Positions 4,021 to 22,578 of a DNA stretch of 24,869 nucleotides are shown in pieces. The notes under the pieces were generated by a model that was not told where the DNA came from, made no database searches, and saw nothing but the letters and a program-made list of their open reading frames with translations. Within the stretch, counting starts at the first letter, position 1. The number at the start of each line of letters is the position of its first letter. The position numbers and the translations under genes are program-made. Source of the stretch: a virus; IMG/VR virus record IMGVR_UViG_3300042691_007835, positions 1-24,869 of that record. The stretch is one strand, 5' to 3'.

Positions 4021-4387
4021 GTCTCATATTTTCCTTATTAGTCAAGTCATGAGAAAGATGAACTATATTAATCCATGGACAAAGTCTCTTGATCTCAGTT
4101 ATCTGAATTGGATCATCTTCAAAATGAATTTCAATATTAAATCCATCATCTTTAAGTCTATTAAGAGTATTTGCCTTATGAACACCTGATCCTTCTCTAG
4201 ATTTCTCATCGAACTTTAGAGGATTAAAGAAAACTGGATTATTAATACCTGCTTCATGAAGCATCTGTCTAGTTTCAGGTTCTTCCTCAAAAGATCTGCC
4301 TGTAATGATAATATCGTCAGGACCTGGTCTAACACCGATCAGGCCTTTACGAATATAAATTACTCCATCAATATCAAATGTATTCAT
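4013..4387 (-). CDS. Small HAD-superfamily phosphatase
   Basis: A compact 124-residue HAD fold with no obvious cap domain. Motif I is FDIDGV (nucleophile Asp5, acid/base Asp7), motif II is IITGRS (27-32), motif III is probably Lys71, and motif IV is FEDDPIQ (89-95). The family removes phosphate from small metabolites or nucleic-acid ends. Its start overlaps the last base of the inositol-phosphate synthase stop codon (TAATG), and its stop overlaps the pyrophosphorylase-like gene by eight bases, so the three are translated together. One inferred role is dephosphorylation of inositol phosphate made by the upstream enzyme; action on a phosphorylated DNA base or nucleotide is an alternative. Confidence 0.8.
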   Translation of the reverse strand: MNTFDIDGVIYIRKGLIGVRPGPDDIIITGRSFEEEPETRQMLHEAGINNPVFFNPLKFDEKSREGSGVHKANTLNRLKDDGFNIEIHFEDDPIQITEIKRLCPWINIVHLSHDLTNKENMRHV

Positions 4388-6761: not shown

Positions 6762-7774
6762 TTTTTCCACTCAGTAAATTTAAGTTTAGCTTCCATTCCG
6801 GAGAACGTATTGGTATTTATGGTTTCTATAATTTGATGTATTGATTTACCAGCCATAACCATCTCATTAATATCTTTTTCATGTGTAGTATCTGGCCATA
6901 GACATACAGAATAATCTTCATTAATAAGTTTCTCAATATACTTGCATATCTCTTTAGATCTTGGTTCATTATCCATAACCAAAGTAGCATTAGTCTTTAT
7001 ACCTTGAGTAAATGGAATATCAAATCCTGCTCCACCAATAGCAACTGAATTAGGTAGGAATATAGAATCTATAGGACCTTCGACTACATAAACGCGTTTT
7101 GAATAATCAAGTCGATCCATACCAAATACTTTCTCTTCTTTTTCATCTAGTCTGATAGTAATATATTTTGGCTGTTCAGATCCAAATGCTCTACCTTGAT
7201 ACATGAATACTTTACCATGATTATTAAAGAAAGGAATAACAAGTCGTGGAGTATCATTTTCTACATTTGTAAATTGATACTTAATACTATTACTCCATGT
7301 CTTAAATTTTGGGGCAAAATAAAGTAGATCCCATTTATCTGCTGGAATCTTTCTCTTAATAATATACTGTTTTGCTGGATGTTCTAGATCAAGAGAATCA
7401 ATTCTTTGTAACTTATCTAATATAGAATCATAAAGAATAGGTTCAGGATTAACTTCTATAGCAGTATCCTCAAACTTAACATGATCGTTATGTTTTGAAG
7501 TATTCTCTTTATATCTCTCAAGAACGTACTCGTTGTAGAGTAGTGGATCTAAGTGTTTGATTAGATTGCCAATATTCGATGAAAAACCACAGTTATGGCA
7601 CTTATACACTAGTCTCTGTTGGTTTTTGAATATAAAGCCACGGGCCTTCAACGGGTTCTTCTTAGAGTCACCGCAGATAGGGCAACTGAAGTTCCAATAG
7701 TAGTCCGATTTCTTTTTAAAGTTTCTGAGTTTGTAGGAGATCTGCCCTACGAATCTAGCGTCGATGTATAACAT
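6755..7774 (-). CDS. 61: DNA primase, T4 gp61-like
   Basis: A 339-residue primase with the two expected modules. The N-terminal zinc-binding domain has CPIC (Cys31, Cys34) and CHNC (Cys59, Cys62). The Toprim catalytic core has VYVVEGPIDS (Glu230, Asp234), the metal-binding LVMDNEPR (Asp266, Glu268) and KDINE (Asp299). Length and layout match T4 gp61, the subunit that makes RNA primers in complex with the gp41 helicase, whose homologue is at the right edge of this window. The preceding 50-base gap is AT-rich with a TATAAT-like hexamer 8 bases before the ATG but no convincing -35 element. The ATG has no strong ribosome binding site. Confidence 0.93.
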   Translation of the reverse strand: MLYIDARFVGQISYKLRNFKKKSDYYWNFSCPICGDSKKNPLKARGFIFKNQQRLVYKCHNCGFSSNIGNLIKHLDPLLYNEYVLERYKENTSKHNDHVKFEDTAIEVNPEPILYDSILDKLQRIDSLDLEHPAKQYIIKRKIPADKWDLLYFAPKFKTWSNSIKYQFTNVENDTPRLVIPFFNNHGKVFMYQGRAFGSEQPKYITIRLDEKEEKVFGMDRLDYSKRVYVVEGPIDSIFLPNSVAIGGAGFDIPFTQGIKTNATLVMDNEPRSKEICKYIEKLINEDYSVCLWPDTTHEKDINEMVMAGKSIHQIIETINTNTFSGMEAKLKFTEWKKC

Positions 7775-7825
7775 ATAGTATAATTATATCTCAAATAGTA
7801 ATTAAAGTACATTAATTTTATTATA

Positions 7826-8353
7826 TTAGTCACTTATCTTTCCATCATCTAAAGTAATATCCCATAGTTCTTCTACACTATGAAACATATGATTCAATTT
7901 GGTGGTATCATATCCATACTTTTCTAAGTGATCTAAAATTAGATGATTATAAGCAGGAGCAGCTTCAGCATGATGTTTATGATGACGATAAAAACTATGT
8001 AATCTAAAATGACCGCTTGCATGTTTGGTACTAAGTGCTAATACTGCGCATGCACTATCACATTGATCTAAACTATACCAATAGACATGACCATGCTGAT
8101 ATAATGTGTCCATACAATCAAATAAGTCATGACTAGTACCTCCTCTGCTTGAAGCATAAAAGTTTATAGTTTGACCTGGATGAGTTTTGACAATACGAAT
8201 AATTTCATCATACTCATCTCGATCTAAGTGACCTTGAACTTTATAATCATGGTCTCGTATTTGCTTTACACCTATTTCTGTAGCACATCCTTGGATGATC
8301 ATGAAACTGATCATAGTGATTATTTTTAATGCATGATTACTTATAAAGTACAT
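7826..8353 (-). CDS. Lipoprotein with ClpP/crotonase-like serine protease domain
   Basis: This 175-residue protein has a lipoprotein signal (hydrophobic 9-20, lipobox IQGC with Cys23), so it should be anchored in a membrane facing the periplasm. The rest resembles periplasmic ClpP-like proteins (COG3904-type): NFYASSRGGTSHDLFDCMD corresponds to the SxGG segment, CDSACAVLALS gives a probable nucleophile Ser100, and HFRLHSFYRHH gives a probable catalytic His119. Its start overlaps the groES stop (TAATG). Possible roles are processing or degradation of envelope proteins or an entry-blocking function in superinfection exclusion. The fold call is from motif pattern only, and the third catalytic residue is not identified. 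Confidence 0.65.
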   Translation of the reverse strand: MYFISNHALKIITMISFMIIQGCATEIGVKQIRDHDYKVQGHLDRDEYDEIIRIVKTHPGQTINFYASSRGGTSHDLFDCMDTLYQHGHVYWYSLDQCDSACAVLALSTKHASGHFRLHSFYRHHKHHAEAAPAYNHLILDHLEKYGYDTTKLNHMFHSVEELWDITLDDGKISD

Positions 8354-8619
8354 TAATCTTCTAATACAGCTACAATATGTTCTTCTAAAACCATTACACG
8401 CTGGGCTCCATCTACAGTTACAACAGCAGCTTTATTCCATTCTAATAATACTTTATCATCAACCTTTACTTCAGTAACTTCAGGACCAATAGCTAGAACC
8501 TTACCTGATCTAGATTCTCCTCCAGCATCTCTACCTTCAATAATGATACCTGAAGACGTAGTGTTTTCTCTTTTAATTTCAGCAATAAGAACTTTCTTGC
8601 CTAATGGGCGAACTGACAT
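8353..8619 (-). CDS. groES: GroES-family co-chaperonin (functional analogue of T4 gp31)
   Basis: At 88 residues it has the length and pattern of Cpn10. It starts MSVRPLGKKVLI, has a mobile-loop segment ENTTSSGIII that docks to GroEL, then SRSGKVLAIGPE, the DKVLLEW strand and the C-terminal strand HIVAVLED. It is a closer match to true bacterial GroES than to the diverged T4 gp31. The expected role is as lid for host GroEL, allowing folding of the phage major capsid protein. The ATG has an AAGGAA ribosome binding site, and it is followed by the coupled ClpP-like lipoprotein gene. Confidence 0.95.
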   Translation of the reverse strand: MSVRPLGKKVLIAEIKRENTTSSGIIIEGRDAGGESRSGKVLAIGPEVTEVKVDDKVLLEWNKAAVVTVDGAQRVMVLEEHIVAVLED

Positions 8620-8628
8620 AATATTTCC

Positions 8629-8859
8629 TTAAATGAACCATCTATATATTCCCCATAAATCTATGAGAATAAATGATAAGTTATGATAGAAGAGGGGTTT
8701 ATCCTTTGCAATAAAGAATACGTATATAGCTATAGAATGGGCTGTTAGGAATGCAAAGAATCCTAGCTTTCCAAAGCTAACATTTGAACTAAGCAATAAA
8801 GCCCCAAGAGTAAATAGTGTGGTCATGACCCACTTCAAAGGGACAATATGTTTATTCAT
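8629..8859 (-). CDS. Small hydrophobic membrane protein
   Basis: A 76-residue protein with about three membrane segments (roughly 10-25, 29-51 and 59-74) and a short basic N-terminus. The C-terminal NLSFILIDLWGIYRWFI resembles terminal segments of small PnuC- or PQ-loop-like transporters, but the protein is too short to assign. No ribosome binding site precedes the ATG; instead a promoter-like TTTACT-17-TATAAT places the transcript start at or next to the ATG, so it may be leaderless. An inner-membrane location is inferred. Being two genes from the spanin/XhlA group, a holin-like function is conceivable but unproved. Confidence 0.6.
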   Translation of the reverse strand: MNKHIVPLKWVMTTLFTLGALLLSSNVSFGKLGFFAFLTAHSIAIYVFFIAKDKPLFYHNLSFILIDLWGIYRWFI

Positions 8860-8865
8860 AATAAA

Positions 8866-8894
8866 ATTATAATATAGAATTAAATTAAAGTAAA
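8866..8894 (-). promoter_or_regulatory. Sigma70-like promoter before the small membrane protein
   Basis: TATAAT at 8866-8871 is preceded by TTTACT at 8889-8894 with a 17-base spacer, on the minus strand, in the 39-base gap after the SpeD-family gene. The predicted start would fall at the ATG at 8859. In AT-rich DNA such matches occur by chance, so support is moderate. Confidence 0.4.
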
Positions 8895-8898
8895 ATTA

Positions 8899-9267
8899 TT
8901 AACCAGCTTGTCTGGTTAGATAGTTTGCTCGGATCTTTTTAGGTGAGAATGAATCATTGATAGTTTTGATTACATCTATGTTATCAAATTGCTTGCACGA
9001 GAACACATCTATGTAAACATCACCAGTTGAATCGATGAAGTGTGCTACTATACTTGATGTTACAATAACTTGGATAGCTGTAAATCCAGCTTTATCTGGA
9101 AACTCTGCGGCTGTGTATTCGATACGTGGTTCACCAATTGGTTCCATGTCAATAGCTTTGACCAAACCAGTGATCCAATTATAAACATTATCATAACTCT
9201 TGATGCTATCAACATTACACGCATGACAATCTAATATTAAATGGTAACCCCAAAATTCATTTTGCAT
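8899..9267 (-). CDS. speD: SpeD-family (S-adenosylmethionine decarboxylase-like) pyruvoyl enzyme
   Basis: This 122-residue protein has the short prokaryotic SpeD layout: GYHLILDCHAC near the N-terminus, then AIQVIVTSSIVAHFID and GDVYIDVFSC. Ser71, His76 and Cys91 keep the same spacing as the pyruvoyl-forming Ser63, processing His68 and catalytic Cys83 of the Thermotoga enzyme. The residue before the self-cleavage serine is Thr70 instead of Glu, and the usual HTWPE stretch is HFIDS. The family normally makes decarboxylated S-adenosylmethionine for spermidine synthesis; some phage homologues are known to have become ornithine or arginine decarboxylases. Substrate is therefore open. The ATG shares a base region with the preceding gene's stop, indicating coupling. 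Confidence 0.82.
   Translation of the reverse strand: MQNEFWGYHLILDCHACNVDSIKSYDNVYNWITGLVKAIDMEPIGEPRIEYTAAEFPDKAGFTAIQVIVTSSIVAHFIDSTGDVYIDVFSCKQFDNIDVIKTINDSFSPKKIRANYLTRQAG
8900..8918 (-). terminator. Weak terminator-like hairpin at the end of the SpeD-family gene
   Basis: The minus strand reads TAACCAG-ACAAG-CTGGTTA, a seven-pair stem overlapping the last codons and stop of the gene, followed by the U-rich ATAATTTTACTTT. The stem is only partly GC and the U-run is interrupted, so any termination would be partial. Confidence 0.35.
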
Positions 9268-9977
9268 TATAAACTCAAAGCTTGATCTTGCTCTGTCCTC
9301 TGATAGTTGGATAATTTATCTAAGTAACCTTGATTACGTAGCTCTTTAAATACAAGGTTTTCGAATGAGAATTCTCCGCCTTTTTTAATTGCTGCACCAC
9401 GCATGTCGCGTAGCTTTTCTTTGAAGTGTTTGACTGAATCTAAATCAATATGACCTTTAATCATGTCATCGATCATCTTCATGTAGAACTTAACTTTTTT
9501 CTTAAGGTATGGATCCTTTAACATGTCATCACCAATAAATTCTGGTTTGGCGATCCATTCATCTTTAGTTAATGAATAGACTCCTTGTTGTTTTGGGTAT
9601 GCCACTGATACGTCTTGAGCGTATGGTTCTAATCCATATCCAAGTATAGTTATCTTATGTGACATCGTCCACATTTGTTTCTTATCTTGTAGATAATCAT
9701 CAAGTAATGGATTATCTTTTGCTATTAAAGATTTATCAACAACCAGATGTACGTCAAGATCAGACATATCAGTATAGTTGTAATTAGCATTTCCTCCGAG
9801 AAGGATAACTTCTTTAACAGCTGACTTAGGTATTTTAGCATATTCTCTCCATACTTCAGCAAACTGTAATAATTTAGCTCTGACTTCTGGTTTTAATTCA
9901 AAATCATTCCAGAGCTTTGGATTTAGCTCTTTATGATATTGCAACTGAAGTTTTAATTCTTTTAAAGTAACTTTCAT
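9267..9977 (-). CDS. Pol-beta-like nucleotidyltransferase domain protein
   Basis: The central motif is LLGGNANYNYTDMSDLDVHL (59-78), a G-G/N...S-D-x-D pattern with metal-binding Asp73 and Asp75, as in the minimal/pol-beta nucleotidyltransferase fold. A later segment PYAQDVSVAYPKQQGVYSL (117-135) matches a conserved part of this phage family that follows the active site, though its expected third acid is less clear. The C-terminal third is helical and basic. The family could transfer a nucleotide to RNA, protein or a small molecule; the target is unknown. Its start overlaps the stop of its neighbour as ATGA. It is unlike the HxGH-type nucleotidyltransferases elsewhere in the window. Confidence 0.78.
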   Translation of the reverse strand: MKVTLKELKLQLQYHKELNPKLWNDFELKPEVRAKLLQFAEVWREYAKIPKSAVKEVILLGGNANYNYTDMSDLDVHLVVDKSLIAKDNPLLDDYLQDKKQMWTMSHKITILGYGLEPYAQDVSVAYPKQQGVYSLTKDEWIAKPEFIGDDMLKDPYLKKKVKFYMKMIDDMIKGHIDLDSVKHFKEKLRDMRGAAIKKGGEFSFENLVFKELRNQGYLDKLSNYQRTEQDQALSL

Positions 9978-10357
9978 TTATATAACTTATTAACTAGGTA
10001 TCCAATAGCAATTGCACCACCAATAACTAACCAACGCCATACTTCTAACACTCTTACACGAGCATCAAGACCTTTAAGTTTCTCTTCGATAGCAGATTGT
10101 ATCTTAGCATGACCCTCTACACTATTCTGCATAGATTGGTCTAACTTTTTATTGATCTCTTTAGCTATATTGTCCATCTTAGTATGTATATCTCTTATAT
10201 CATCTTCGTTGCGCACAGTGTCTTTCTCTATTGTGTTTATTCGAGTATCATGTACTGCGAGCAATCTACTTACATTATTACTAACTTCAGTAAGCTTATC
10301 AATCGATACGTCAAGCTTTTCAACTATACGTTCTAATTGTTCAAAATCATTTGCCAT
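9974..10357 (-). CDS. XhlA-like coiled-coil membrane protein, candidate lysis accessory
   Basis: This 127-residue protein has a long heptad-like helical region (about 5-105, rich in Asp/Glu/Lys with regular Ile/Leu/Val) and a single C-terminal membrane segment WRWLVIGGAIAIGYLV (107-122) ending in a basic tail. This layout matches the XhlA/hemolysin group found in phage lysis modules. It directly follows the Rz/Rz1 pair and overlaps the Rz gene by 11 bases, which supports a lysis or membrane-remodelling role. No holin with several membrane spans or endolysin is found beside it, so it could also anchor another phage factor to the inner membrane. Confidence 0.65.
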   Translation of the reverse strand: MANDFEQLERIVEKLDVSIDKLTEVSNNVSRLLAVHDTRINTIEKDTVRNEDDIRDIHTKMDNIAKEINKKLDQSMQNSVEGHAKIQSAIEEKLKGLDARVRVLEVWRWLVIGGAIAIGYLVNKLYK

Positions 10358-10952
10358 TATAGATTCTTTCCTGTGAACTAACCCAATCTTGTAAAGCTTT
10401 TAATCTTTCACTTAACTGATGATAGTTATTATAATTGATTGTTATTGTTTCTCCGATGGTAGAGAGTTTAGTTCCACTGGCGGTTCCATCAACTCCTTGG
10501 GTGGAGTCGGGAACTTCATTTTTTGCGGCAGAATCGTGGAGCAAGATAAAAGACTTAGGGACAACGCAGTTAGCGTCAGCATCCTTAGTGATAAATTTAG
10601 GTACTTCCTTAATGATAACATCACCTTTCTCCTTGATTACTTTTGTTTTTGTTACGTATTTAGTTACTATTTGTTTTGACTTCTTTTCAGATAATGCAAC
10701 TTTACGATCCATATCTGCTTTTAATTTTGCTGCTTCAGCACGCCATCTCATTTCAGTACCATATCCACCATATAGATAAACACTAGCTATAAGTAGAATA
10801 GTTCCTACTGTTCTCATTAGCATTCCCCATCCTCTAATTAATGGTAGAAATACTGTAAAAGTGCCAAAAACAAACAGAGCTGCTCCTATACCCATAATGG
10901 ATAGGATAAACCCATATATAACGCTATCTGGTATGAGACTTAATAACCACAT
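10347..10952 (-). CDS. Rz: Rz-like inner-membrane spanin
   Basis: A 201-residue protein with two hydrophobic segments (about 11-39 and 44-62) followed by a charged helical periplasmic part (KLKADMDRKVALSEKKSK) and the Rz-like segment around CVVPKSFILLHDSAA (129-143). Classical inner spanins have one N-terminal span, so the extra one is unusual; internal Met44 or Met46 would give a single-span form. The strongest support is that a typical Rz1 lipoprotein is encoded within codons 111-170 in another frame. Rz and Rz1 together bridge the periplasm and fuse inner and outer membranes in the last step of lysis of Gram-negative hosts. The start shares its A with the previous stop (TAATG). Confidence 0.82.
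   Translation of the reverse strand: MWLLSLIPDSVIYGFILSIMGIGAALFVFGTFTVFLPLIRGWGMLMRTVGTILLIASVYLYGGYGTEMRWRAEAAKLKADMDRKVALSEKKSKQIVTKYVTKTKVIKEKGDVIIKEVPKFITKDADANCVVPKSFILLHDSAAKNEVPDSTQGVDGTASGTKLSTIGETITINYNNYHQLSERLKALQDWVSSQERIYNGK
10442..10621 (-). CDS. Rz1: Rz1-like outer-membrane spanin lipoprotein, embedded in Rz
   Basis: Although it lies fully inside the Rz-like gene in a different frame, it has all hallmarks of Rz1. It has a basic start (MLSLRKYLNLSLR), a hydrophobic stretch ending in the lipobox LLSC, and a short proline-rich mature part (FPTPPKELMEPPVELNSLP). The ATG at 10621 has an excellent AAGGAG ribosome binding site about nine bases upstream; a GTG one codon earlier is in frame but less likely. 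About 59 residues. Lipidation and sorting to the outer membrane are expected, where it binds the C-terminus of the inner spanin. The nested arrangement is the same as in phage lambda. Confidence 0.88.
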   Translation of the reverse strand: MLSLRKYLNLSLRMLTLTALSLSLLSCSTILPQKMKFPTPPKELMEPPVELNSLPSEKQ

Positions 10953-11521
10953 TATTGCATTGGTGTAGCACGTCTTGCTAGTCCAGCGACTGGCCCTGCG
11001 GCTACATTACCTTTCTTATATTTTTCAATGTCTTTCTTTTTAACAACTGGACCACCTGAATCTATGGTAGTACCAGTAACACCAGCGGTAGAACTAACGG
11101 GAGCTCCACCAACGGCGCCCCCATCTTCGTCTAATTCTTTTTTAATTTTCTCAACAAGAATGGTTTCTTCAATTAATACAACATCAGAATCCATTATCTT
11201 ATTAAACTTATCTTCCATTAAAGCTATTGAACGATCATTCTTTTCGTAATACTCTTTAATTAGAAAATACGCCGCAACAAGACTCTTTAACTTATTTTCC
11301 CCTCCAGGCAGTTTGTTGATAATCTTCTTCATATTGAAGACTAATCGATGTAAATAGGTATATGCACTTTTCTGTTCTTCAGTTTCGAACTTAGAAGGCT
11401 TTATGAGGTTTCTACCCTTGTTATCGACGATACCTAACTTATAGGCATCAGTGTCTACAATTGGTTTTACCAACATAGAGAGTACTCTGTAAGCTATTAA
11501 ATTATCTATTACTTGTGACAT
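10952..11521 (-). CDS. Conserved phage protein of unknown function
   Basis: This 189-residue protein has a helical N-terminal domain including LVKPIVDTDAYKLGI, a segment TYLHRLVFNMKKIINKLPGG, and LVAAYFLIKEYY. A low-complexity Gly/Ala/Thr/Pro tail (129-189) ends RRATPMQ. I recognise the pattern from marine T4-like phages, where it is unnamed. There is no signal peptide or membrane span. It overlaps the next gene (Rz) and the previous gene by single-base stop/start sharing, so the three are coupled. The flexible tail could be a linker or an assembly arm in a virion protein; this is only a guess. Confidence 0.7.
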   Translation of the reverse strand: MSQVIDNLIAYRVLSMLVKPIVDTDAYKLGIVDNKGRNLIKPSKFETEEQKSAYTYLHRLVFNMKKIINKLPGGENKLKSLVAAYFLIKEYYEKNDRSIALMEDKFNKIMDSDVVLIEETILVEKIKKELDEDGGAVGGAPVSSTAGVTGTTIDSGGPVVKKKDIEKYKKGNVAAGPVAGLARRATPMQ

Positions 11522-11898
11522 TAAATCTTCCTAAGTATCTTAATAATATACTCATCTAGTTTAACTCTAGATAATTTTATGTTATATTGAGGCAATTCTT
11601 CAGGCATCCTATTAAGAAAAACTAAAAATGTTACTAATGTATCCCAATATTCTTTTTCTATCTTAAAGAATAACATATTTGTAGCGTTATCACCAAAAAT
11701 ATTGTAGATAACTATAAGATGATTTAAAATTAAATTCTCTTTTAAGTCACATTCATTTTTATATCTACTAAAAAGTTTCTTTAGATATAAGAACCTTTTC
11801 AAGTCATCATTAAATTCCTCAATGCTATAACATTGACTATTATCATAATGATGCATTGCATAGGTTAAAAAATTATCTTCTGTCAACAATTGATTCAT
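11521..11898 (-). CDS. Conserved phage protein (DUF7207-like), function unknown
   Basis: This 125-residue protein has the pattern of a small helical family common in marine T4-like phages: FLTYAMHHYDNSQC, EEFNDDLKRFLYLKKLFSRY, LILNHLIVIYNIFG, MLFFKIEKEYWDTL and FLVFLNRMPEELP. No catalytic motif is evident. It is the first gene after a terminator and has no exact late promoter in front, so it probably depends on read-through or an unrecognised promoter. Its stop shares a base with the next start. Family number is from memory; function is unknown. Confidence 0.7.
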   Translation of the reverse strand: MNQLLTEDNFLTYAMHHYDNSQCYSIEEFNDDLKRFLYLKKLFSRYKNECDLKENLILNHLIVIYNIFGDNATNMLFFKIEKEYWDTLVTFLVFLNRMPEELPQYNIKLSRVKLDEYIIKILRKI

Positions 11899-11901
11899 AT
11901 T

Positions 11902-11930
11902 AAAAGAGGGGGAGTTTCCTCCCCATCTCT
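11902..11930 (-). terminator. Rho-independent terminator after the Ig-domain protein
   Basis: The minus strand forms GGGGAG-GAAA-CTCCCC (11909-11924), six GC-rich pairs with a GNRA loop. AGAG/CTCT can extend the stem across a small bulge, and TTTTAAT follows. It lies directly after the stop of the highly structured virion gene and probably ends the late block. Confidence 0.75.
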
Positions 11931-11931
11931 A

Positions 11932-12852
11932 TTAAGCAGTTACTGTCAATGTTGCTGCTGTTGTTGTAACATCTGTGTTACCAGTTGTAGCACCGACCAC
12001 GCAACGATATTTATCACCATTGCTGTCTGCTGTACCAGAAGCTGCAACTTGTGTAGCACCTGTTGTGTAGCTAGCTGTTGTACCACCTGTACCGCGTGTT
12101 ACGTTAGCCCATGCACCAGCACCACCTTCTTGTACTTGCCATTGATATGTTAATGAACCAGCACCAGTGATTGCAGCAACTACTGAGAATGTTGCAGTTG
12201 CAGGCTCAACTACTGTAGCATTAGATGGTTGTGTTGTAATAGAAACTGTAGCATCAACAACAACTGCATCGTCAGCAGCATCACCAGTTGTAGCTTGTAA
12301 CTTATCTGATTGACCACCTAAAGCAATTAAACATTCTGCGTGATGATATACTGAACCATCAGCATTTGTTCCTGATCTGTATAACCACCAACCTGGGCTC
12401 TTAAGACCACGTGCTTTGTTTTCTGGTTGTTGTGCTTCATTAACGTCAACAAAGTATAGATCCATACCATTATTGATATGATCTCCATTACCTGGAGCTG
12501 TTGATTCGTTACCTTCAGCATTGCGTTGTAAGAACTGAGCAGCATTACCTGTGCCAGTTAAATCAACAAAGTTGGTACCAGCTTTGGCATTAGCTTCTGT
12601 ATCTGATAGTTTGAATACACCAGAAACAGCTGTTTGATAAGCATAGTAAGTATTACCTGATGTTAAACCACCAAGAGTAGTACCACCATTTGCATTATAT
12701 ACTACACCATCACCTGTTGCAAAATCTGTATTTGAACCACGTAAGTCGATAGTATTGTCTGTTATATTAACAGCAGCAGTACCGAAATACGCTTTTCTTG
12801 TGATATACTTTGGCGAAGCCGCTAAAGTATCTAATTTTCCCCATAAAGCCAT
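11932..12852 (-). CDS. Virion structural protein with C-terminal Ig-like domain
   Basis: This 306-residue protein starts MALWGKLDTLAASPKYIT, as do many virion proteins of marine T4-like phages. The first 200 residues are rich in beta structure (LGGLTSGNTYYAYQ, SPGWWLYRS). Residues about 203-306 form an Ig-like domain: VSITTQPSNATVVEPATATF, then the core Trp in LTYQWQVQ, the Tyr-Cys pair KYRCVV and the closing strand AATLTV. Such domains decorate capsids or tails and bind carbohydrate or host surfaces weakly. A strong TAAGGAG site and its own terminator suggest high expression. It is a candidate head-decoration or tail-surface protein; Hoc-like function is inference. Confidence 0.8.
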   Translation of the reverse strand: MALWGKLDTLAASPKYITRKAYFGTAAVNITDNTIDLRGSNTDFATGDGVVYNANGGTTLGGLTSGNTYYAYQTAVSGVFKLSDTEANAKAGTNFVDLTGTGNAAQFLQRNAEGNESTAPGNGDHINNGMDLYFVDVNEAQQPENKARGLKSPGWWLYRSGTNADGSVYHHAECLIALGGQSDKLQATTGDAADDAVVVDATVSITTQPSNATVVEPATATFSVVAAITGAGSLTYQWQVQEGGAGAWANVTRGTGGTTASYTTGATQVAASGTADSNGDKYRCVVGATTGNTDVTTTAATLTVTA

Positions 12853-12859
12853 TTTAATT

Positions 12860-12881
12860 ACTCCTTAAATTTTTATTTATT
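12860..12881 (-). promoter_or_regulatory. Strong ribosome binding site and near-consensus late promoter for the Ig-domain protein
   Basis: TTAAGGAGT at 12860-12868 is an almost complete anti-16S match seven bases before the ATG. Just upstream, 12874-12881 reads AATAAATA, one base from the late octamer TATAAATA and at a plausible distance from the gene. The ribosome site is convincing; the promoter is tentative. Confidence 0.5.
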
Positions 12882-15474
12882 TGTTACGGTTTGGCAAATG
12901 TAGGCTGTGAACTGGAATACCGCCGTCTTCTCGTCCATTACCCTTTTGTCTAGCGCCTGATTTAGATCCACTTGGTCTGCCGCGTCCACGCTTCTCTTGT
13001 TTTTCATCATCTTTTTTCTCATCACCTTCATCATCTTTTTGAGCTTGACCACCATATGACGTACCTTTATGAGTAGTAATATGAGGGTGGCTCGTATCTG
13101 CTTTATAATCTTTATCATAAGCTGATTTATTAGCTGCTCTTAATTTTTGTGCATCTCTTAGATCATCAAGTTTACCTTCATCCATAACAGCTAATGTAGC
13201 ATTTACATATGACATAGCATGGTTATCTTCTGAAACATGTTCTACTTCTTCTTTAGCTAACTTGTCTGCAGCTTTATTAAGACCAGCGACTCGTTTAACA
13301 TTTTTGTTTAAAGCTTTTTGCATGCTAGGTTCGTTGTAATTAGAACCAGATGCATCCATCGCTCTATCAATTCTAACTTCTCGTTTTGTTATATCAGCAG
13401 AAGCTTTCTTAACATATGAACCTAGAGTCTTTTTATCTAACTCTTCGATTTGTTCTACTTCTTCTTTAGAAAGTTGTTGTGTTTTCTTAAGAGCTTGTCC
13501 AGCTAAATTAGCAGCTTTACCAGAACCTTCTTTATTAGATGAAGTTTTTTTCCAATCACCTTCATGCGACCAAGATTTAACTTTACCTGAAGCATCTTTC
13601 TCAACCTTATCTACAGCTTCATTAGCAACTTGCTGTGCAGTTTTATGACCAGCAATTACAGCAAGTTCTTTACCACTAATGCCATGTTCTTTACCTACTG
13701 CATCGTAATCTGCAGGAGTAAATTGTTTATGGCTTGAATAACCTTTCTTATCAGCATGATGCATCATTGAAGTATGAATGTCTTTCATCTTACCTTCATC
13801 GATCTGTACGTCTTCCTTAGTTAATTTCTTAACTGCAGTTGCAATACCATCTTCGCGTTTCCATGCTTTTGACTTATATTTTTTAGATAATCTATCAAGA
13901 GCACTCTTTAAACCTGGGTTACGTTTACGTTCTGCAGAATTTGCATAATCTTTAGAGATCATACCATGAATACGTGATGATTTAGCAGCTTTAGGAATAT
14001 AAGAAGCTAATGTATCTTTTGAGATTTCATCAATAGGTTCTACTTCTTCTTTTTGTACTTTAACTGGGTATGTCTTACCTTTGAACTCAAACTCTTTTTT
14101 ACCAGCTTTATGAGCAGAGTGTGCAGCCATACGAAGACCTGATTCGTCCATGTCATCTTCATCCATGCACTTCTTAGCTTCATTGCGAAGTTTCTCAAAG
14201 TCATCTGCATCAAGCTTACCGTTTTTATTTTTGTCAAGCTTATGCTGATTGCCTTTTAGTTCTTCTTTCTTCATGCTTCCATATTTACCTTCTTTTAAGA
14301 AGTCATTGAAATTTAACATAGTTACCCCTTCTTTAATTTTTTTAAATTTTTTCCATTTCTCATCGTAAACTTCGCCTTCTTTAACTTCTTTCTTTTCTGG
14401 CTCTGGTTTCTTTTCAACTGGTTTATTTTGGCCAGTGAAAGCTCTTTGAGCTACTTCTCTATTCTTTAAGAATGTAGCAATAATCTTATGACCTCTAGAT
14501 TCTTCTATTTCTAATTGTTCTTTAAAGTCTTTAACAGTCTTTTTCTTTTGTGTTAAAGGAATAGGCGGATTTAATACCTTTTTCTTATCAACAACATCTG
14601 TGCCGATGCCTTTATATTCTACAGCTTCTTTAGCTAATTTAGATACTGCCGTATCAATACCAGCAGAACGTTTAAGATATTTGGTTTTGCCTTTTGTATA
14701 AGTAGGATCAGTACCTGCACTTAATCCAGGTCTCTTAGAACTTGCAAGTTGATGGCCAAGATCATTTGCAGTCATTGCATTATCTTTATGAGCTTTCTTA
14801 ATATAAGAAGCTAAAGTGTTTTTAGAGATTTCATCAATCTGAACTTCTTCTACTTGTTCTTGAGAATTTTTAAGGTCTTGATCTGATGGAGCTCCTTTGC
14901 TACCTGGTTTTCTCATGCGTTCGCCAGATCCAGCTGCTATTCTTTTTCGTTTAGCATGGATATTTGCCCACAAACCTTTTTTACCTTCTTCTAGTTCTAC
15001 TTCCTCTTTAACTTTTTGTTTTTTCTTTTTAGCTTCAAGTTCTTGTTGTTGCTGTTCTAATTCTTTTTGATTATGTTCAGCTGCTTGGCGATCATCTTCC
15101 TCTTGGCTTTCAGTAAACTTTTCTACATCTGATGCACGTGTTGCATGAGATTTTCTATGAGAATGTTTTGATCTTCCATATTTTTTAACAAAATCGTCTG
15201 ATGATAAGTTATCTAAATCATCTTCCTCTTTTTTAGTTAAGAAAGCTTCTTCTAAATCACCTTTAATATCTGTTGACATACTTGGAGATACAAATGCTGC
15301 TTCATTCTTTTTAGAATAGTATGCGGCAAGAGCCATTTGGCGTCGTTTAGCCATAGATTTACCAGCAAATTGTGGATTATCTGAATGAACGAAATCATGG
15401 ATCCATTTAGCTGCTGGATCCTTTTTAGTTAAAACTTCATCTATCTGAGTTCTAATATCTTTTAATGACTTCAT
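12877..15474 (-). CDS. Large modular repeat protein, probable processed head-core/internal protein
   Basis: An 865-residue, very charged protein. Modules in order: N-terminal DPAAKWIHDFVHSDNP and RRQMALAAYYSKKN (19-56); a Gln/Lys/Glu-rich coiled region (120-160); three related repeats starting at about 208, 476 and 671; and an internal T4-leader-like MLNFNDFLKEG (386-396). An EF-hand loop (Asp414 to Asp425) and a C-terminal AT-hook-like RGRGRPSGSKSGAR (829-841) follow. Five sites fit the T4 prohead protease rule Leu/Ile-x-Glu before Ala/Gly/Ser (after 76, 163, 325, 395 and 560). This suggests a head-core polyprotein cut during capsid maturation, with DNA-binding pieces left inside. It follows Dps by one base and precedes the Ig-domain virion gene. 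Unknown family as a whole. Confidence 0.7.
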   Translation of the reverse strand: MKSLKDIRTQIDEVLTKKDPAAKWIHDFVHSDNPQFAGKSMAKRRQMALAAYYSKKNEAAFVSPSMSTDIKGDLEEAFLTKKEEDDLDNLSSDDFVKKYGRSKHSHRKSHATRASDVEKFTESQEEDDRQAAEHNQKELEQQQQELEAKKKKQKVKEEVELEEGKKGLWANIHAKRKRIAAGSGERMRKPGSKGAPSDQDLKNSQEQVEEVQIDEISKNTLASYIKKAHKDNAMTANDLGHQLASSKRPGLSAGTDPTYTKGKTKYLKRSAGIDTAVSKLAKEAVEYKGIGTDVVDKKKVLNPPIPLTQKKKTVKDFKEQLEIEESRGHKIIATFLKNREVAQRAFTGQNKPVEKKPEPEKKEVKEGEVYDEKWKKFKKIKEGVTMLNFNDFLKEGKYGSMKKEELKGNQHKLDKNKNGKLDADDFEKLRNEAKKCMDEDDMDESGLRMAAHSAHKAGKKEFEFKGKTYPVKVQKEEVEPIDEISKDTLASYIPKAAKSSRIHGMISKDYANSAERKRNPGLKSALDRLSKKYKSKAWKREDGIATAVKKLTKEDVQIDEGKMKDIHTSMMHHADKKGYSSHKQFTPADYDAVGKEHGISGKELAVIAGHKTAQQVANEAVDKVEKDASGKVKSWSHEGDWKKTSSNKEGSGKAANLAGQALKKTQQLSKEEVEQIEELDKKTLGSYVKKASADITKREVRIDRAMDASGSNYNEPSMQKALNKNVKRVAGLNKAADKLAKEEVEHVSEDNHAMSYVNATLAVMDEGKLDDLRDAQKLRAANKSAYDKDYKADTSHPHITTHKGTSYGGQAQKDDEGDEKKDDEKQEKRGRGRPSGSKSGARQKGNGREDGGIPVHSLHLPNRNK
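13240..13464 (-). repeat. Repeat unit 3 in the head-core-like protein
   Basis: Residues 671-745. It opens EEVEQIEELDKKTLGSYVKK and closes KRVAGLNKAADKLAKEEVEH. It is the most diverged of the three units but keeps the order: acidic lead, I-x-E, TLxSY, basic middle, hydrophobic helix ending KLAKEEV. Confidence 0.75.
13807..14049 (-). repeat. Repeat unit 2 in the head-core-like protein
   Basis: Residues 476-556. It opens KEEVEPIDEISKDTLASYIP and closes KREDGIATAVKKLTKEDV, followed directly by IDEG, a possible prohead protease site. The variable middle (about 35 residues) is basic and differs from unit 1. Confidence 0.8.
14608..14853 (-). repeat. Repeat unit 1 in the head-core-like protein
   Basis: Residues 208-289. 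It opens VEEVQIDEISKNTLASYIKK and closes KRSAGIDTAVSKLAKEAVEY. It shares the IDEISKxTLASYIxKA start and the GIxTAVxKLxKE end with unit 2 and, more loosely, unit 3. Confidence 0.8.
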
Positions 15475-15475
15475 A

Positions 15476-15925
15476 CTAATCTCCGAGTTTCTTTAAATAT
15501 GATTTAATCATCCATTCATGTTTCTTATGAATAGACATACGATCAGCTGCAAAGTTTGCTAAGCCTTGTTGTTTTTGTTTTGTTGCTTCGTCAAATAATT
15601 TACTTAGACTATCTAAAGTCTGAGCATTTGCTTCTAGTAAATTCATGAGCATCTCATGCACTGATCCAGGTAATGATGAATCTTCTGAAAACGTTTTATA
15701 GTTATACATCTCCATTAAACTAATAGGAGCATACGCATCTAGTTTTCTAATCTCTTCAGCTAAAGGATCTACTGCACCATGTAGATCTATGTATAAATCT
15801 CCAAAGAATGTATGAAATTCATTAAATAACATTCCTTCAACATTCCAATGGTAACTATGAGATTTAAAGTACATGGTAAATGTGTTACCAATTGCTATTT
15901 TAAGTGTTGCTAATAATTTGTCCAT
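15476..15925 (-). CDS. dps: Dps/ferritin-like DNA-protection protein
   Basis: This 149-residue protein matches the four-helix Dps family. SHSYHWNVEG (22-31) contains the ferroxidase-site His, FHTFFGDLYIDLHGAVDPLAEEIRKLD follows with the metal-binding Asp/Glu set, and the C-terminal helix HKKHEWMIKSYLKKL ends the fold. Dps forms a 12-subunit shell that oxidises iron with peroxide and can bind DNA. The gene lies between two large head-associated genes, one base before the repeat polyprotein. An inferred role is protection of phage DNA against oxidative damage in the cell or in the virion. A late-like AATAAATA just before the ATG is too close to be its promoter. Confidence 0.88.
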   Translation of the reverse strand: MDKLLATLKIAIGNTFTMYFKSHSYHWNVEGMLFNEFHTFFGDLYIDLHGAVDPLAEEIRKLDAYAPISLMEMYNYKTFSEDSSLPGSVHEMLMNLLEANAQTLDSLSKLFDEATKQKQQGLANFAADRMSIHKKHEWMIKSYLKKLGD

Positions 15926-15932
15926 GTATTAT

Positions 15933-17726
15933 TTATTCCTTCTTTAATCTATAGTTAACCAAGTCTGAAGCAGTTACATCAACATTCTCTTTCTTTGTTT
16001 TTTCATAGAAAGCTGAGAAACTAAGATCTTTAGTTCTTTGAACTCCTTTTGGATCTTTCTTTGGAACTAAATTAGGTGGTATAGTTTTAATTTTTTTAGC
16101 TACATCATCACCGATGCCGTCGCCAATCTCTCCACCATGACCTTCAGTAAATGTTACAGCAAATTCTTCATCCATTAGATCACCAGCAATAAATCCTTCT
16201 TTTTGCATCTTAGCTTTAATCTTAGCAACTTGTGCTTGATGATACTTAACTTTTTCATCATCTCCTGCTTTATTTGCTGCTAAAGCTTTTTCTGTATGTT
16301 TATCTGCTTGTTTTTTAAGATCTGCTGATTCAGTTGCGTATTGAACCTTTTGTCTACGTAAATGGTCTCTTGTTGCTAGTGTATGACCATTTTTAGTTTG
16401 TGTTTCAAATGGCCAATCTTGAAGATCATCAATCTGCTGACTAATATTTGGTTCGATAGGAGTTTTATCAAATTTAGTATCTTTAACAAAACCAGGTTGT
16501 ACTTTACCTAACTTCATAAACTCTTGATATGTCATAGCTGAACGTTTAATATTCTCATTATCATGTTTACTTTCTTCAATAGTTTCTTCTACAAGTTCAT
16601 CAAGCTGTTTCTTATGTTTTTCCCAAGATTCAGAATGTTGTGTAAATATACCAAGTTTAGATAAAGCTTCTTTTGCTTTAATATGAGCAATCTTAATATG
16701 TTTATTACTTACCATTTGATCATGACCTTTATTATTATTAGGTTCATTGATCTTTAAATAAGTATCGGTTGTCTTAATAGCGTTAAGCATAGCAACTGGA
16801 TCTTTAATTTCTCCAGCTAAAGATAACTTAAATGCTTTTGATGTTTCTGGGCAGCAATGGAAATGACTTGTTGTATATCCTTTATAGGATACTTGCGGAT
16901 TATGATCTTCTTTAACTTCCTCAGGTACACAATTAGGAACTTGTTTACCGTTCTTTTTCTTCATTCCTATCTGTTTATAATTTTTCCAGCATGCTTCTAC
17001 TAGACTTACATCTTTAATCCATTTACGATGAAGCTCACCTGATTTATCTACAACTACTAGATAATTAGAACCTCTATCCATAATCTCATATTGATGACCA
17101 GCCGATTCAACAATATCTCCAATATGATAGATCTCGCCTTTAAAGTATTTGTCTCTTAATTGGTCGATATTGAACTTAAGTTCTTCTTTAAGAACTTCAA
17201 GACCTGCTACTTGTCTCATCTCATTCATCATTCGACGAGCGTCAATATCTCTTATAGATGAAGGTAACTGAAGCTTAAATGCTTGATAGTCACCCTTAGT
17301 CATGTATGATCTGATCTTATTATTATCTGGATTTTGTTCGCCTGTAGAAACTACCTGGACTGATTCAAATAATTTGCTAGTAATAGCCTTTTCAAATGTT
17401 TTAACTTTATCTTCTGAAGTAACTATAACAACATTCTTATATCTATTTTTTAACTTAGATACTTCCTCAACTAGATGGTCTTCATTGATACTTGTAAAGT
17501 TAAGCTTATTAAACATAAGCTCAAGAAAGTGGATCTTCCTGTCAACAGGAAGAGTATTCTGTTCTTCGGTAACGTAGATGACATGATCAGCATTATGACT
17601 ATGCACTAGTTTTTCAACCAGTTTGAAAGCCATCTCATGCATGACTGTAGGAGGATTGAAGCTGCCGACTGACATTACTACTGTCTTAGAAGGCAACTCT
17701 TTTATTAGTTGTCTGTAGTTCTTCAT
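15933..17726 (-). CDS. HxGH-type nucleotidyltransferase fused to modular virion-protein segments
   Basis: A 597-residue mosaic. Residues about 14-175 form a cytidylyltransferase/NMN-adenylyltransferase-like domain, with GSFNPPTVMH at 21-30 for nucleotide binding and DIDARRMMNEMR in place of the usual C-terminal ISxTxxR motif. After it come an SH3/KOW-like stretch (196-240, FKGEIYHIGDIVE, MDRGSNYLVVVD), CWKNYKQIGMKKKNGKQVPN (246-265) and the YKGYTTSHFHCCPE segment (281-294). Helical charged tails follow. The later modules resemble those of marine phage virion proteins. The N-terminus MKNYRQLIKEL is a leader-like sequence in T4 capsid-targeting register, so the enzyme may be carried inside the head. 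A late promoter lies 35 bases upstream. Substrate is unknown. Confidence 0.72.
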   Translation of the reverse strand: MKNYRQLIKELPSKTVVMSVGSFNPPTVMHEMAFKLVEKLVHSHNADHVIYVTEEQNTLPVDRKIHFLELMFNKLNFTSINEDHLVEEVSKLKNRYKNVVIVTSEDKVKTFEKAITSKLFESVQVVSTGEQNPDNNKIRSYMTKGDYQAFKLQLPSSIRDIDARRMMNEMRQVAGLEVLKEELKFNIDQLRDKYFKGEIYHIGDIVESAGHQYEIMDRGSNYLVVVDKSGELHRKWIKDVSLVEACWKNYKQIGMKKKNGKQVPNCVPEEVKEDHNPQVSYKGYTTSHFHCCPETSKAFKLSLAGEIKDPVAMLNAIKTTDTYLKINEPNNNKGHDQMVSNKHIKIAHIKAKEALSKLGIFTQHSESWEKHKKQLDELVEETIEESKHDNENIKRSAMTYQEFMKLGKVQPGFVKDTKFDKTPIEPNISQQIDDLQDWPFETQTKNGHTLATRDHLRRQKVQYATESADLKKQADKHTEKALAANKAGDDEKVKYHQAQVAKIKAKMQKEGFIAGDLMDEEFAVTFTEGHGGEIGDGIGDDVAKKIKTIPPNLVPKKDPKGVQRTKDLSFSAFYEKTKKENVDVTASDLVNYRLKKE

Positions 17727-20489: not shown

Positions 20490-21119
20490 TTATTTACTTC
20501 CTTGATGTACGTCATGCATGAGTTCTTTTGCGTGTTTATCTGAAACATGCTCTGGAACTCCTTTACGGAATTCATGAAAATTTCCAGCATGTGCATGTTC
20601 TCTTTGCTTAGTTCCTGAAACTCCACTAGTACCTTCAGCATCTGGATCACGATGACCAGCAGAATGAACAGTTATCTTCTTAAAGTTGTAATGCCCGTGC
20701 CCTGACTTTTGGCCATTATACTTATGTAATAATGAATGCATCTCTTTTTTACGATCAGAGCCAACAACTACATGAAGATGTGTTACACCTTTCTTATGCA
20801 ATTCAGCAGCATGATGTAATATAGTTGGATGTTCTGAAGATGATGACTTAAAGCTAGTCTTTGGAGAATATCTCTTTAGATGCTTAAGCTTTTGCGCTGC
20901 AGTTAAAGGATTCTTTTTCTTATCTTGAGAATGACTTGTAACTACAGTATGGTCTGCTTTATGTTTATCAGCAACATCATGAACCTTATGGATAACTTGC
21001 ATATGACCTGTAGTCGGTGGATTCATACGACCAAAAGCTAGGACATGATGCTTATCCGAACCATGTCCTTTTTCGTCTTTATCTTCTTTGATATATTCTT
21101 TAAAGTTTAGCAATTCCAT
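20490..21119 (-). CDS. HxGH-type nucleotidyltransferase with capsid-targeting-like leader
   Basis: A 209-residue His/Lys-rich protein. The cytidylyltransferase-like fold is shown by LAFGRMNPPTTGHM (27-40, ATP/CTP binding), VVVGSDR (117-123) and SGVSGTKQREHA (165-176, equivalent to the ISxTxxR motif). Such enzymes join a nucleotide to NMN, pantetheine phosphate or related acceptors; the substrate here is unknown. The N-terminus MELLNFKEYIKED has the aromatic-x-x-aromatic-Ile-x-Glu pattern of the T4 capsid-targeting sequence, followed by KDEKGHGSDK, nearly identical to the linker of the ligase-like protein. Its start lies inside the DUF6321-like gene. Probably packaged in the head together with its neighbours. 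Confidence 0.75.
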   Translation of the reverse strand: MELLNFKEYIKEDKDEKGHGSDKHHVLAFGRMNPPTTGHMQVIHKVHDVADKHKADHTVVTSHSQDKKKNPLTAAQKLKHLKRYSPKTSFKSSSSEHPTILHHAAELHKKGVTHLHVVVGSDRKKEMHSLLHKYNGQKSGHGHYNFKKITVHSAGHRDPDAEGTSGVSGTKQREHAHAGNFHEFRKGVPEHVSDKHAKELMHDVHQGSK

Positions 21120-21394
21120 TTTCTTAATGCCTTATTAATGCGTGAATCAGGATCTCTTGCTGTTTTAGCTGATGTTAGTCTCTTTTTCATTCCACCCATA
21201 CGAGCACAGAATGATTTACGACGATTTGCAGCTTTACTACCTTTCTTTAATTTTGAAGGTTTAGTAGTAACAGCAGTTTGAAGATTTCCGCCTGTCTTTC
21301 TATTATAGGCATCTACTCCTTTCTGTGTCATACCACCTGAAGGACTAAAATGACCCTTCTTATCTTCTTCGAGATATTCTTTAAATGTAAGCAT
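21107..21394 (-). CDS. Small basic DUF6321-like protein with capsid-targeting-like leader
   Basis: 95 residues. The leader MLTFKEYLEED is followed by a basic domain: GGMTQKGVDAYNRKTG, KAANRRKSFCARMGGMKKR, and DPDSRINKALRKWNC at the end. This matches a small phage family I know as DUF6321, of unknown function; the conserved Cys pair and Arg/Lys content suggest nucleic-acid or metal binding. It starts at the last base of the ligase-like gene's stop (TAATG) and overlaps the nucleotidyltransferase gene by 13 bases. The leader is the cleanest match in the set to T4 internal protein leaders, so head packaging is inferred. Confidence 0.75.
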   Translation of the reverse strand: MLTFKEYLEEDKKGHFSPSGGMTQKGVDAYNRKTGGNLQTAVTTKPSKLKKGSKAANRRKSFCARMGGMKKRLTSAKTARDPDSRINKALRKWNC

Positions 21395-22578
21395 TATCGA
21401 TTCCTTAATAAATTAGCTCTACTAAATTCTTGTCTGTTAACAAGTTTAGTTGGAGCACCTTTGTGATTAACTACAAATCCTTCTGGGTTTGCTTCTTGAT
21501 TATCAATATGATGACTTAAACCACCATGATGTTGATTCAAAGTATTTACTAAGACATCTTTAGCCTTAGCAATGTGTTGATGCATTTTAAATAGGTTATC
21601 ATAATATTCTTTATTTTTTTGAATATGATTAACGTGTTCTTCTGCTTCGGCATGTTTTACATTAGCAGCTTTTGCTGTTTTAAGTTTACTTGCGGCTGCC
21701 TTAGCTTTGTCTAGAATGTGTTGTTGTAGACCTCTTGCTGAAGGTTTTTCTCCCTTACGAACGGTCTGATTAATATAAGTTACCATATGGCCACCCTCAC
21801 CTTGATGAGGTTCAGTTAATGGATACATCATTTTACCATGTTCGTCATGAATCTTTTTAGCAGCATCAATATGTTTTTGGAATTGAATTTGATTTACTTT
21901 AGAATAATCAGTTGTTGATGTATCATGTTCTGCTGTCTTATGCCATACGTCATCATTTTGTCTGAACTTATGCTCAATAGTAGGACTTGCCTTCATATCT
22001 TCTATGTTATTACCATGATATTGTTGATGAACAACTACACCAACTTTAGCATTTTTAATCTTGTTGGCATCTTGGCCATGAGCAGTATAGGTAATAGTAT
22101 TTGGTTTAAATGAAGCTGATCCTTCTGGATTATGTACTACATCACCATGACTAAACATTAAGTCTCCTTGGTACACGCCCTTTTTAGGTGTTACTTTTGG
22201 TAAATGTTCTAATGCATGATAAAGTTTAGCTGCAAGTTCTGGCTTATCTCCATGATGTAATTTAATGTCATCCACAGTATGATTGATCTTAGGATTCTTA
22301 TTAAATGCTGATTTTGTAGCTACAAAGAACTTACCAGTCTTTGGATGATGTCCAAAAACTATAGCTGGAGATCCATCATACTTCATAGTTAAACCTGAAT
22401 CTTTTTTACCAGACTTAATATGTTCATGAGCTTGTGTTAAAGCTCCAACTGTATGCTCGAATCCTTTTTTACCATGTAGTAATGGTCTATCCTCAGGATG
22501 ATGGATATGTTTTAACTTGTCAGAACCATGTCCTAACTCATCTTTTTCTTCTGTTAAAAAATCTATAAATGTTTTCAT
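21394..22578 (-). CDS. Ligase-superfamily (KxDG) nucleotidyltransferase with capsid-targeting-like leader
   Basis: A 394-residue protein with the marks of covalent nucleotidyltransferases. TMKYDGSPAIVFG (64-76) has the adenylation Lys66 in a KxDG motif, FFVATKSAFNK is motif III-like, VYQGDLMF (135-142) resembles the conserved GxL/M strand, PEGFVV (365-370) is motif IV and TKLV (377-380) is a motif V-like lysine. Members are DNA or RNA ligases and capping enzymes that transfer AMP or GMP. It is His-rich. The leader MKTFIDFLTEE is almost the same as that of T4 internal proteins, and the following KDELGHGSDK linker is shared with the nucleotidyltransferase two genes downstream. It may seal or cap nucleic acid early in infection after injection. 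Confidence 0.75.
   Translation of the reverse strand: MKTFIDFLTEEKDELGHGSDKLKHIHHPEDRPLLHGKKGFEHTVGALTQAHEHIKSGKKDSGLTMKYDGSPAIVFGHHPKTGKFFVATKSAFNKNPKINHTVDDIKLHHGDKPELAAKLYHALEHLPKVTPKKGVYQGDLMFSHGDVVHNPEGSASFKPNTITYTAHGQDANKIKNAKVGVVVHQQYHGNNIEDMKASPTIEHKFRQNDDVWHKTAEHDTSTTDYSKVNQIQFQKHIDAAKKIHDEHGKMMYPLTEPHQGEGGHMVTYINQTVRKGEKPSARGLQQHILDKAKAAASKLKTAKAANVKHAEAEEHVNHIQKNKEYYDNLFKMHQHIAKAKDVLVNTLNQHHGGLSHHIDNQEANPEGFVVNHKGAPTKLVNRQEFSRANLLRNR

Follow-up and report, generated by a model that had tools for sequence, protein, structure and literature searches.

The 24,869-base IMG/VR fragment IMGVR_UViG_3300042691_007835 (24.9 kb, hereafter the window) encodes an 865-residue protein, P0001, which is probably a prohead-core or internal head protein of a T4-like aquatic phage, made of interchangeable modules and partly cut. 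P0001 is a mosaic of about 12 modules of 30-90 amino acids (aa), which recur in other orders in more than 100 phage open reading frames (ORFs), and it belongs to a family that is widespread in aquatic phages and whose members combine short modules in freely shuffled order. An initial annotation of the window had proposed a head scaffold or internal protein. This proposal is now strongly supported, but by way of the relatives of P0001, some of which occupy the gp67/gp68 slot of T4-like genomes while all ten module-related ORFs of two cultured phages are found in virions. Given that relatives lie among capsid-assembly genes or inside virus particles, P0001 is most likely packed in the phage head; packaging of P0001 itself, judged by analogy with them, appears very likely.

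The ORF that the initial annotation had placed at 12877-15474 was confirmed, and its strand, which had not been stated, is minus; the plus strand of this interval is packed with stops. The same annotation had described three repeats. With a profile built without any window sequence, from other phages only, exactly three copies of this repeat (C) were found in P0001 (74-81 aa; 77, 81 and 74 aa in order), and none of 500 shuffles of P0001 gave a match with E<1. Self-BLAST of P0001 gave no off-diagonal match, the repeats being visible only with a profile. The three copies begin IDEISKNTLASYIKKA, IDEISKDTLASYIPKA and IEELDKKTLGSYVKKA and end GIDTAVSKLAKE, GIATAVKKLTKE and GLNKAADKLAKE; the third departs from the front consensus once suggested, IDEISKxTLASYIKKA. 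The repeat had thus been recognised, while the wider point, that it is one of about 12 shuffled modules, had been missed. The layout of the protein, in the direction of translation, is as follows (hidden Markov model, HMM; predicted local distance difference test, pLDDT; a slash marks the predicted cut).

12877-15474, minus strand: mosaic ORF P0001, 865 aa, pI 9.3, net charge +29
15304-15450, minus strand: module A, residues 9-57, KKDPAAKWIHDFVHSDNPQFAGKS...ALAAYY; in 63 ORFs of related loci, 30 of them without a C repeat
14863-14985, minus strand: module B, residues 164-204, GKKGLWANIHAKRKRIAAGSGERMRKPGSKGAP...; phrog_16028, E 8.7e-19; in 29 ORFs
14623-14853, minus strand: repeat C1, residues 208-284; independent HMM, domain E 4e-20
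14401-14523, minus strand: module S, residues 318-358, ESRGHKIIATFLKNREVAQRAFTGQN; in 9 ORFs
14290-14319, minus strand: internal capsid-targeting-like element MLNFNDFLKE/G, residues 386-395
14173-14265, minus strand: EF-hand-like module, residues 404-434, GNQHKLDKNKNGKLDADDF; in 38 ORFs; EF-hand Pfam models match only below cut-off
14053-14154, minus strand: module K, residues 441-474, GLRMAAHSAHKAGKKEFEFKGKTYPVKV; in 37 ORFs
13810-14052, minus strand: repeat C2, residues 475-555; independent HMM, domain E 3e-19
13615-13809, minus strand: module M, residues 556-620; in 28 ORFs; best-predicted domain, helical, pLDDT about 90
13468-13614, minus strand: module W, residues 621-669, DASGKVKSWSHEGDWKKTSS...; in 38 ORFs
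13246-13467, minus strand: repeat C3, residues 670-743; independent HMM, domain E 2e-22; predicted two-helix hairpin
12952-12993, minus strand: AT-hook-like KRGRGRPSGSKSGA, about residues 828-841, from sequence

IMG/VR was scanned for the C repeat with the five-row version of the profile, which yielded at least 218 confirmed loci, 80 of which were kept; the family counts cover 133 viral sources, namely the window and 132 loci. In these sources, 118 ORFs with one to six C repeats were counted, 99 of them non-redundant. The IMG/VR relatives match different parts of P0001 and in differing orders, and of the 1039 ORF pairs that shared two or more separate matches, 419 (40%) were non-collinear. In locus L011, the counterpart of P0001 is a pair of ORFs overlapping by one base. 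The second begins MLKFNDYLKEAK, and the corresponding stretch of P0001, MLNFNDFLKEGK, is internal, at residue 386; since the L011 sequence starts an ORF there and is internal in P0001, it represents a former start, with two genes fused in the window. The L002 homologue of P0001 terminates in EKRGRGRPAGSKSGARV, comparable to the AT-hook-like tail. A literature search found no description of such a family, although subscription papers were mostly outside its reach and absence is unproven. Limnohabitans phage DC33 (PQ492659), at 39 kb of a size expected for a double-stranded phage, carries Inoviridae in its taxonomy line and is likely misclassified.

The genes of the relatives are found in two genomic homes. 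In T4, genes 67 and 68 occupy the slot between gp20 and gp21, and the T4 record labels gp67 as 'prohead core protein, precursor to internal peptides'. In the first home, C-repeat ORFs lie near the portal gene gp20 in 29 loci (median 163 b) and near the protease gene gp21 in 24 loci (median 401 b), in the order gp20, mosaic, gp21, gp22-like, gp23. The same order holds for A-module ORFs, which are located directly upstream of gp21 in loci L005-L009, L013, L014 and L016. The ORF that immediately follows the portal gene of Synechococcus phage BUCT-ZZ01 opens like gp67 (phrog_1064 'prohead', weak, E 0.003) and closes with a C repeat; a phrog_1064 (gp67) match is absent for P0001, and weak ones were obtained for ORFs of L066 and L013. 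The second home is that of the window, in which C-repeat ORFs lie by Dps in 20 loci (median gap 3.5 b), by a nucleotidyltransferase in 48 and by phrog_613 in 15. The P0001 gene is accordingly located between the Dps and phrog_613 genes and not in the gp20-gp21 slot. The PF03420 prohead protease scored over the family cut-off in eight of nine related records longer than 100 kb, and in the ninth below threshold only; the 160-kb record of L130 has the window-type arrangement together with a prohead protease. Module B also occurs as a small stand-alone ORF in T7-like cyanophages. In S-RIP2 and S-B28 it lies between the genes for scaffold and capsid, and in P-SCSP1u it closely follows the capsid gene. 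The 49-aa module B ORF of S-B28 (MK016662, 23978-24127) is annotated as a ribonucleotide reductase subunit, a name that is probably wrong.

The presence of module-related proteins in virus particles was assessed with virion data for S-CREM2 (Table 3 of PMC10665884) and with the 'virion protein' labels of S-SCSM1 (GenBank MK867354; PMC9602691), which we count in 48 records as against the 45 detected proteins of the paper. A library of mosaic ORFs served as the reference against which the ORFs of both phages were matched. Module-related ORFs were found in virions in 10 of 10 cases, compared with 87 of 488 other ORFs (P=5e-8). Apart from two nucleotidyltransferases, the virion-detected matches include S-CREM2 gp160 (7 peptides) and gp137 and S-SCSM1 ORF29, ORF89, ORF92 and ORF93; ORF92 directly follows a nucleotidyltransferase gene, and the P-TIM68 mosaic of 1006 aa (AIR93496.1), which contains an A-like module and a C repeat, is found in the same position. 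These results bear on the possibility that P0001 is a non-virion protein, an intracellular hub with many motifs (EF-hand-like, AT-hook-like, peptide motifs) for binding proteins of the host or of replication. The EF-hand-like and AT-hook-like motifs would suit such a hub, as would the ribonucleotide reductase, primase and Dps genes among the neighbours, but the detection of every module-related ORF in virions and the presence of ORFs with module B or module A/C within the head-gene blocks of very dissimilar phages make it very improbable.

Cutting of P0001 was considered next to packaging. The initial annotation had listed five sites of prohead-protease type, after residues 76, 163, 325, 395 and 560; all are present, and a sixth, after residue 382, was added.

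15247-15249, minus strand: predicted site LEE/A after residue 76, in a low-pLDDT linker
14986-14988, minus strand: predicted site LEE/G after residue 163, immediately ahead of module B
14500-14502, minus strand: predicted site IEE/S after residue 325
14329-14331, minus strand: predicted site IKE/G after residue 382, the added one
14290-14292, minus strand: predicted site LKE/G after residue 395, closing the internal targeting-like element
13795-13797, minus strand: predicted site IDE/G after residue 560, between C2 and module M

These six T4-type [LI]xE/[AGS] sites compare with a shuffle mean of 1.66 (P=0.0065), an excess beyond chance; [LI]xE without the rule on the P1' residue was not enriched in P0001 (10 versus 7.4 in shuffles, P=0.20). 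Across the family, sites lie closer to module edges than other Glu residues do (0.444, compared with 0.325 on average after permutation; none of the 5000 permutations reached this value), and low-confidence linkers of the AlphaFold2 model surround most of the predicted sites. The gp23 proteins of the same phages have the same site type at residues 40-80, the propeptide region, in 16 of 25 cases against a background of 0.9%. The IDE and IEE at the starts of the repeats, to which the initial annotation had also pointed, do not qualify as sites: their P1' residue is Ile or Leu, off the annotation's own consensus, and the junctions IDE/I and IEE/L were rejected as cleavage sites, gp23 propeptides having mostly A, G, S or T there. 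In mosaics, [LI]xE shows a 4-fold positional preference for a following Leu, which goes back simply to the start of the C repeat. The idea that each released piece carries a small basic domain applies to five of the seven predicted pieces; the two acidic exceptions are residues 77-163 (net -6) and residues 383-395 (13 residues, net -1). The evidence for chopping during maturation is circumstantial, consisting of site enrichment, module-edge placement and the matching gp23 propeptide sites, and on these sequence grounds we lean towards P0001 being cut by the prohead protease.

Site density also bears on whether P0001 could be a pure scaffold or core protein like gp67, gp68 or gp22, broken down completely into small peptides that exit the head, with nothing retained or injected. 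Relatives lie between gp20 and gp21, the BUCT-ZZ01 protein joins a gp67-like start to a C repeat, and T4 gp22, gp67 and gp68 are degraded (PMC9958956), all of which would be expected of such a protein. The density of [LI]xE[AGS], however, is 0.36 per 100 aa over all mosaics, one third of the 1.11 of gp22-like scaffolds (0.69 in P0001 and 0.15 in enzymes and tail proteins), and many mosaics, P0001 included, are encoded outside the head operon. Module-related proteins are moreover present in finished virions, although residual scaffold is detected there too. We therefore regard complete degradation as unlikely.

The N-terminus of T4 IPII and IPIII, MKTYQEFIAE/A, is the classic capsid-targeting sequence (PMC9958956). 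Over about 89% of T4, the targeting pattern was found at the ORF starts of ipII, ipIII and gp61.1. T4 gp61.1 (AF158101, 18966-19130), which starts MKTFKEFIKEDMVAG and fits the pattern, may be an overlooked internal head protein. Targeting-like starts were present in 93 of 1621 ORFs of related loci (2.6 expected), in three ORFs of the window (0.12 expected) and in five ORFs of S-CREM2 (0.57 expected), 5/5 of which encode virion proteins. Those of S-CREM2 (OR473000) are the virion-detected S-adenosylmethionine (SAM) hydrolase, gp13, kinase, gp136 and cytidylyltransferase, with a T4-type targeting-like N-terminus; the virion-detected Cas9 of the same phage has LRFASFMAEA at residues 17-26. These six proteins, encoded at 3837-5081, 7704-10313, 10310-10546, 10579-12846, 107301-108014 and 124608-125468, look like true capsid cargo, a matter left open in their paper.

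Leaders of this kind raise the possibility that P0001 is an internal head protein that is not cut up and is both packaged and ejected in one piece, in the manner of T4 Alt or the internal proteins once their short leader is lost. Its modules would then be fused effector or DNA-binding domains, and its linkers mere acidic spacers. T4 internal proteins shed only a short N-terminal peptide (PMC9958956), targeting-like N-termini are frequent in the same loci, and the C-repeat junctions are non-canonical as sites. Set against this are the enrichment of sites in P0001, their gathering at module edges family-wide, and the internal targeting-like element with its own LKE/G site mid-protein, and we consider an uncut P0001 improbable.

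Several observations weigh against a modular, partly cut core or internal head protein. IDE/I and IEE/L, the junctions at the C repeats, are non-canonical, and the raw enrichment of sites in mosaics is moderate (1.94 versus 1.54 in other ORFs; for the reversed motif the difference is absent, 1.07 versus 1.17). Module B is also found in T7-like phages, so that some modules may not be substrates of the protease. Two of the ten virion-detected module relatives are the nucleotidyltransferases, which were matched through their enzyme domain, and what the virion-detected relatives share with the wider mosaic set is modules other than the C repeat. The N-terminus of P0001, MKSLKDIRTQIDEVL, is off the targeting pattern, and only the internal MLNFNDFLKE/G fits. 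The pattern was chosen after some of these N-termini had been inspected, and S-CREM2 is for that reason not an independent test; the excess of targeting-like starts in related loci is the stronger point. Finally, none of the genes gp20, gp21 (PF03420 protease) and gp23 is present in the 24.9-kb window.

Structure prediction and homology searches were applied to P0001 and its repeat. A single-sequence AlphaFold2 model of P0001 resembled beads on a string, with pLDDT below 50 for 483 of 865 residues. Modelled with 48 family members, the C repeat formed a two-helix hairpin (pLDDT 77), in which the first eleven residues, the IEE/IDE stretch included, were unstructured. A structure search with this model returned generic helical hairpins only, none below E 0.001. 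With the full model, VIA-align gave Z up to 6.5 on a long helix at residues 113-187 and homeodomain-like three-helix rows at residues 548-612 with Z 3-4, under the trusted level. Pfam, PHROGs and NCBIfam assigned no function to P0001, and its likenesses to EF-hands and AT-hooks are weak or were judged by eye.

The surroundings of P0001 in the window were also examined. In the direction of transcription, the genes upstream are a 400-aa ORF, a HAD-like ORF, a DUF6267 protein, a 95-aa ORF, a nucleotidyltransferase and structural ORFs including phrog_1645, followed by a second nucleotidyltransferase with fused modules, the Dps-like gene, P0001, phrog_613 and later primase and ribonucleotide reductase genes.

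21394-22578, minus strand: DUF6267 protein, targeting-like N-terminus MKTFIDFLTEE; Pfam 5.1e-97
21107-21394, minus strand: 95-aa ORF, targeting-like N-terminus MLTFKEYLEED
20490-21119, minus strand: nucleotidyltransferase, targeting-like N-terminus MELLNFKEYIKED; homologues are virion proteins in S-CREM2, S-SCSM1 and S-SM1
15933-17726, minus strand: nucleotidyltransferase fused to shuffled modules (CWKNYKQIGMKKKNGKQVPNCVPEE and others); phrog_3041/395, phrog_9737, phrog_26930, phrog_4808
15476-15925, minus strand: Dps-like ferritin gene, the upstream conserved neighbour; Pfam Ferritin 3.1e-22
11932-12852, minus strand: downstream head protein phrog_613; E 2.9e-36
9267-9977, minus strand: nucleotidyltransferase-like ORF, resembling S-CREM2 gp156 by eye (GGNANYNYT...SDxDxHLVVDK)

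The DUF6267 protein is predicted to be capsid cargo, since ORFs of such kinds with targeting-like starts recur in related loci. It may be asked whether the DNA-binding Dps-like ferritin (15476-15925) is packaged too; its gene abuts the mosaic in most of the 20 loci. L003 and L114 likewise have an ORF of the 9267-9977 type, at a distance of about 2.9 kb from the mosaic, and S-CREM2 gp156 is a virion protein (6 peptides).

Compared with known systems, P0001 would work like a T4-type core or internal head protein, in a new modular form. Its relatives share the gp20-gp21 slot with gp67 and gp68, and one of them has a gp67-like start fused to a C repeat, but gp67 (80 aa, acidic) and gp68 (141 aa) have none of these modules, whereas P0001 is an 865-aa mosaic. 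P0001 is not gp67 or gp68, because it is in the wrong slot and has no homology to them; nor is it a classic internal protein, because it has no N-terminal leader. With IPI-IPIII and Alt it has in common a leader of the same kind (MKNFSSFLTE/A and similar in cyanophage cargo), the same predicted site type and relatives in virions. The leader-like element of P0001 is, however, internal, the protein is several times longer than IPI-IPIII, and several cuts are predicted in place of one near the N-terminus. T4-like gp22 scaffolds likewise have multiple [LI]xE/[AGS] sites, and the location of P0001 relatives is of core type; these scaffolds nevertheless have 3x the site density of the mosaics, lie after gp21 and have no common sequence that we could find. 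P0001 does not belong to the gp22 family, whose genes directly follow gp21 and whose site density is very high. Domain-mosaic phage proteins (PMC10684548) resemble it in that protein fragments are shuffled between non-homologous contexts; the mosaic classes that we noted there do not include internal or core head proteins, and prohead and internal-protein terms are absent from the main text of that paper.

In the arrangement we favour, small, mostly helical or basic, interchangeable modules would be strung on flexible acidic linkers, and P0001 would join the prohead core during assembly. Some of these linkers would be cut at [LI]xE/[AGS] by a gp21-type prohead protease. The basic pieces, the AT-hook-like tail among them, might remain with the packaged DNA and perhaps be ejected with it, or might exit as spent core peptides; that pieces of P0001 bind DNA or are injected is conceivable, but we would not expect it. 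A broader proposal, that many aquatic T4-like phages pack such module strings as capsid cargo polyproteins, which the protease frees and which are injected with the DNA as a quickly reshuffled cocktail for anti-defence or take-over, is speculative and on present evidence doubtful.

Collectively, these results point to the head interior as the common location of many 'hypothetical proteins' from abundant phages of aquatic habitats, and a targeting-like leader together with shuffled modules provides a simple sequence rule for predicting capsid cargo. Injection of internal proteins with a bearing on host range is already known for IPI and IPIII of T4 (PMC9391042). If the pieces of the mosaics are injected, they would constitute a modular delivery system that evolves by shuffling.

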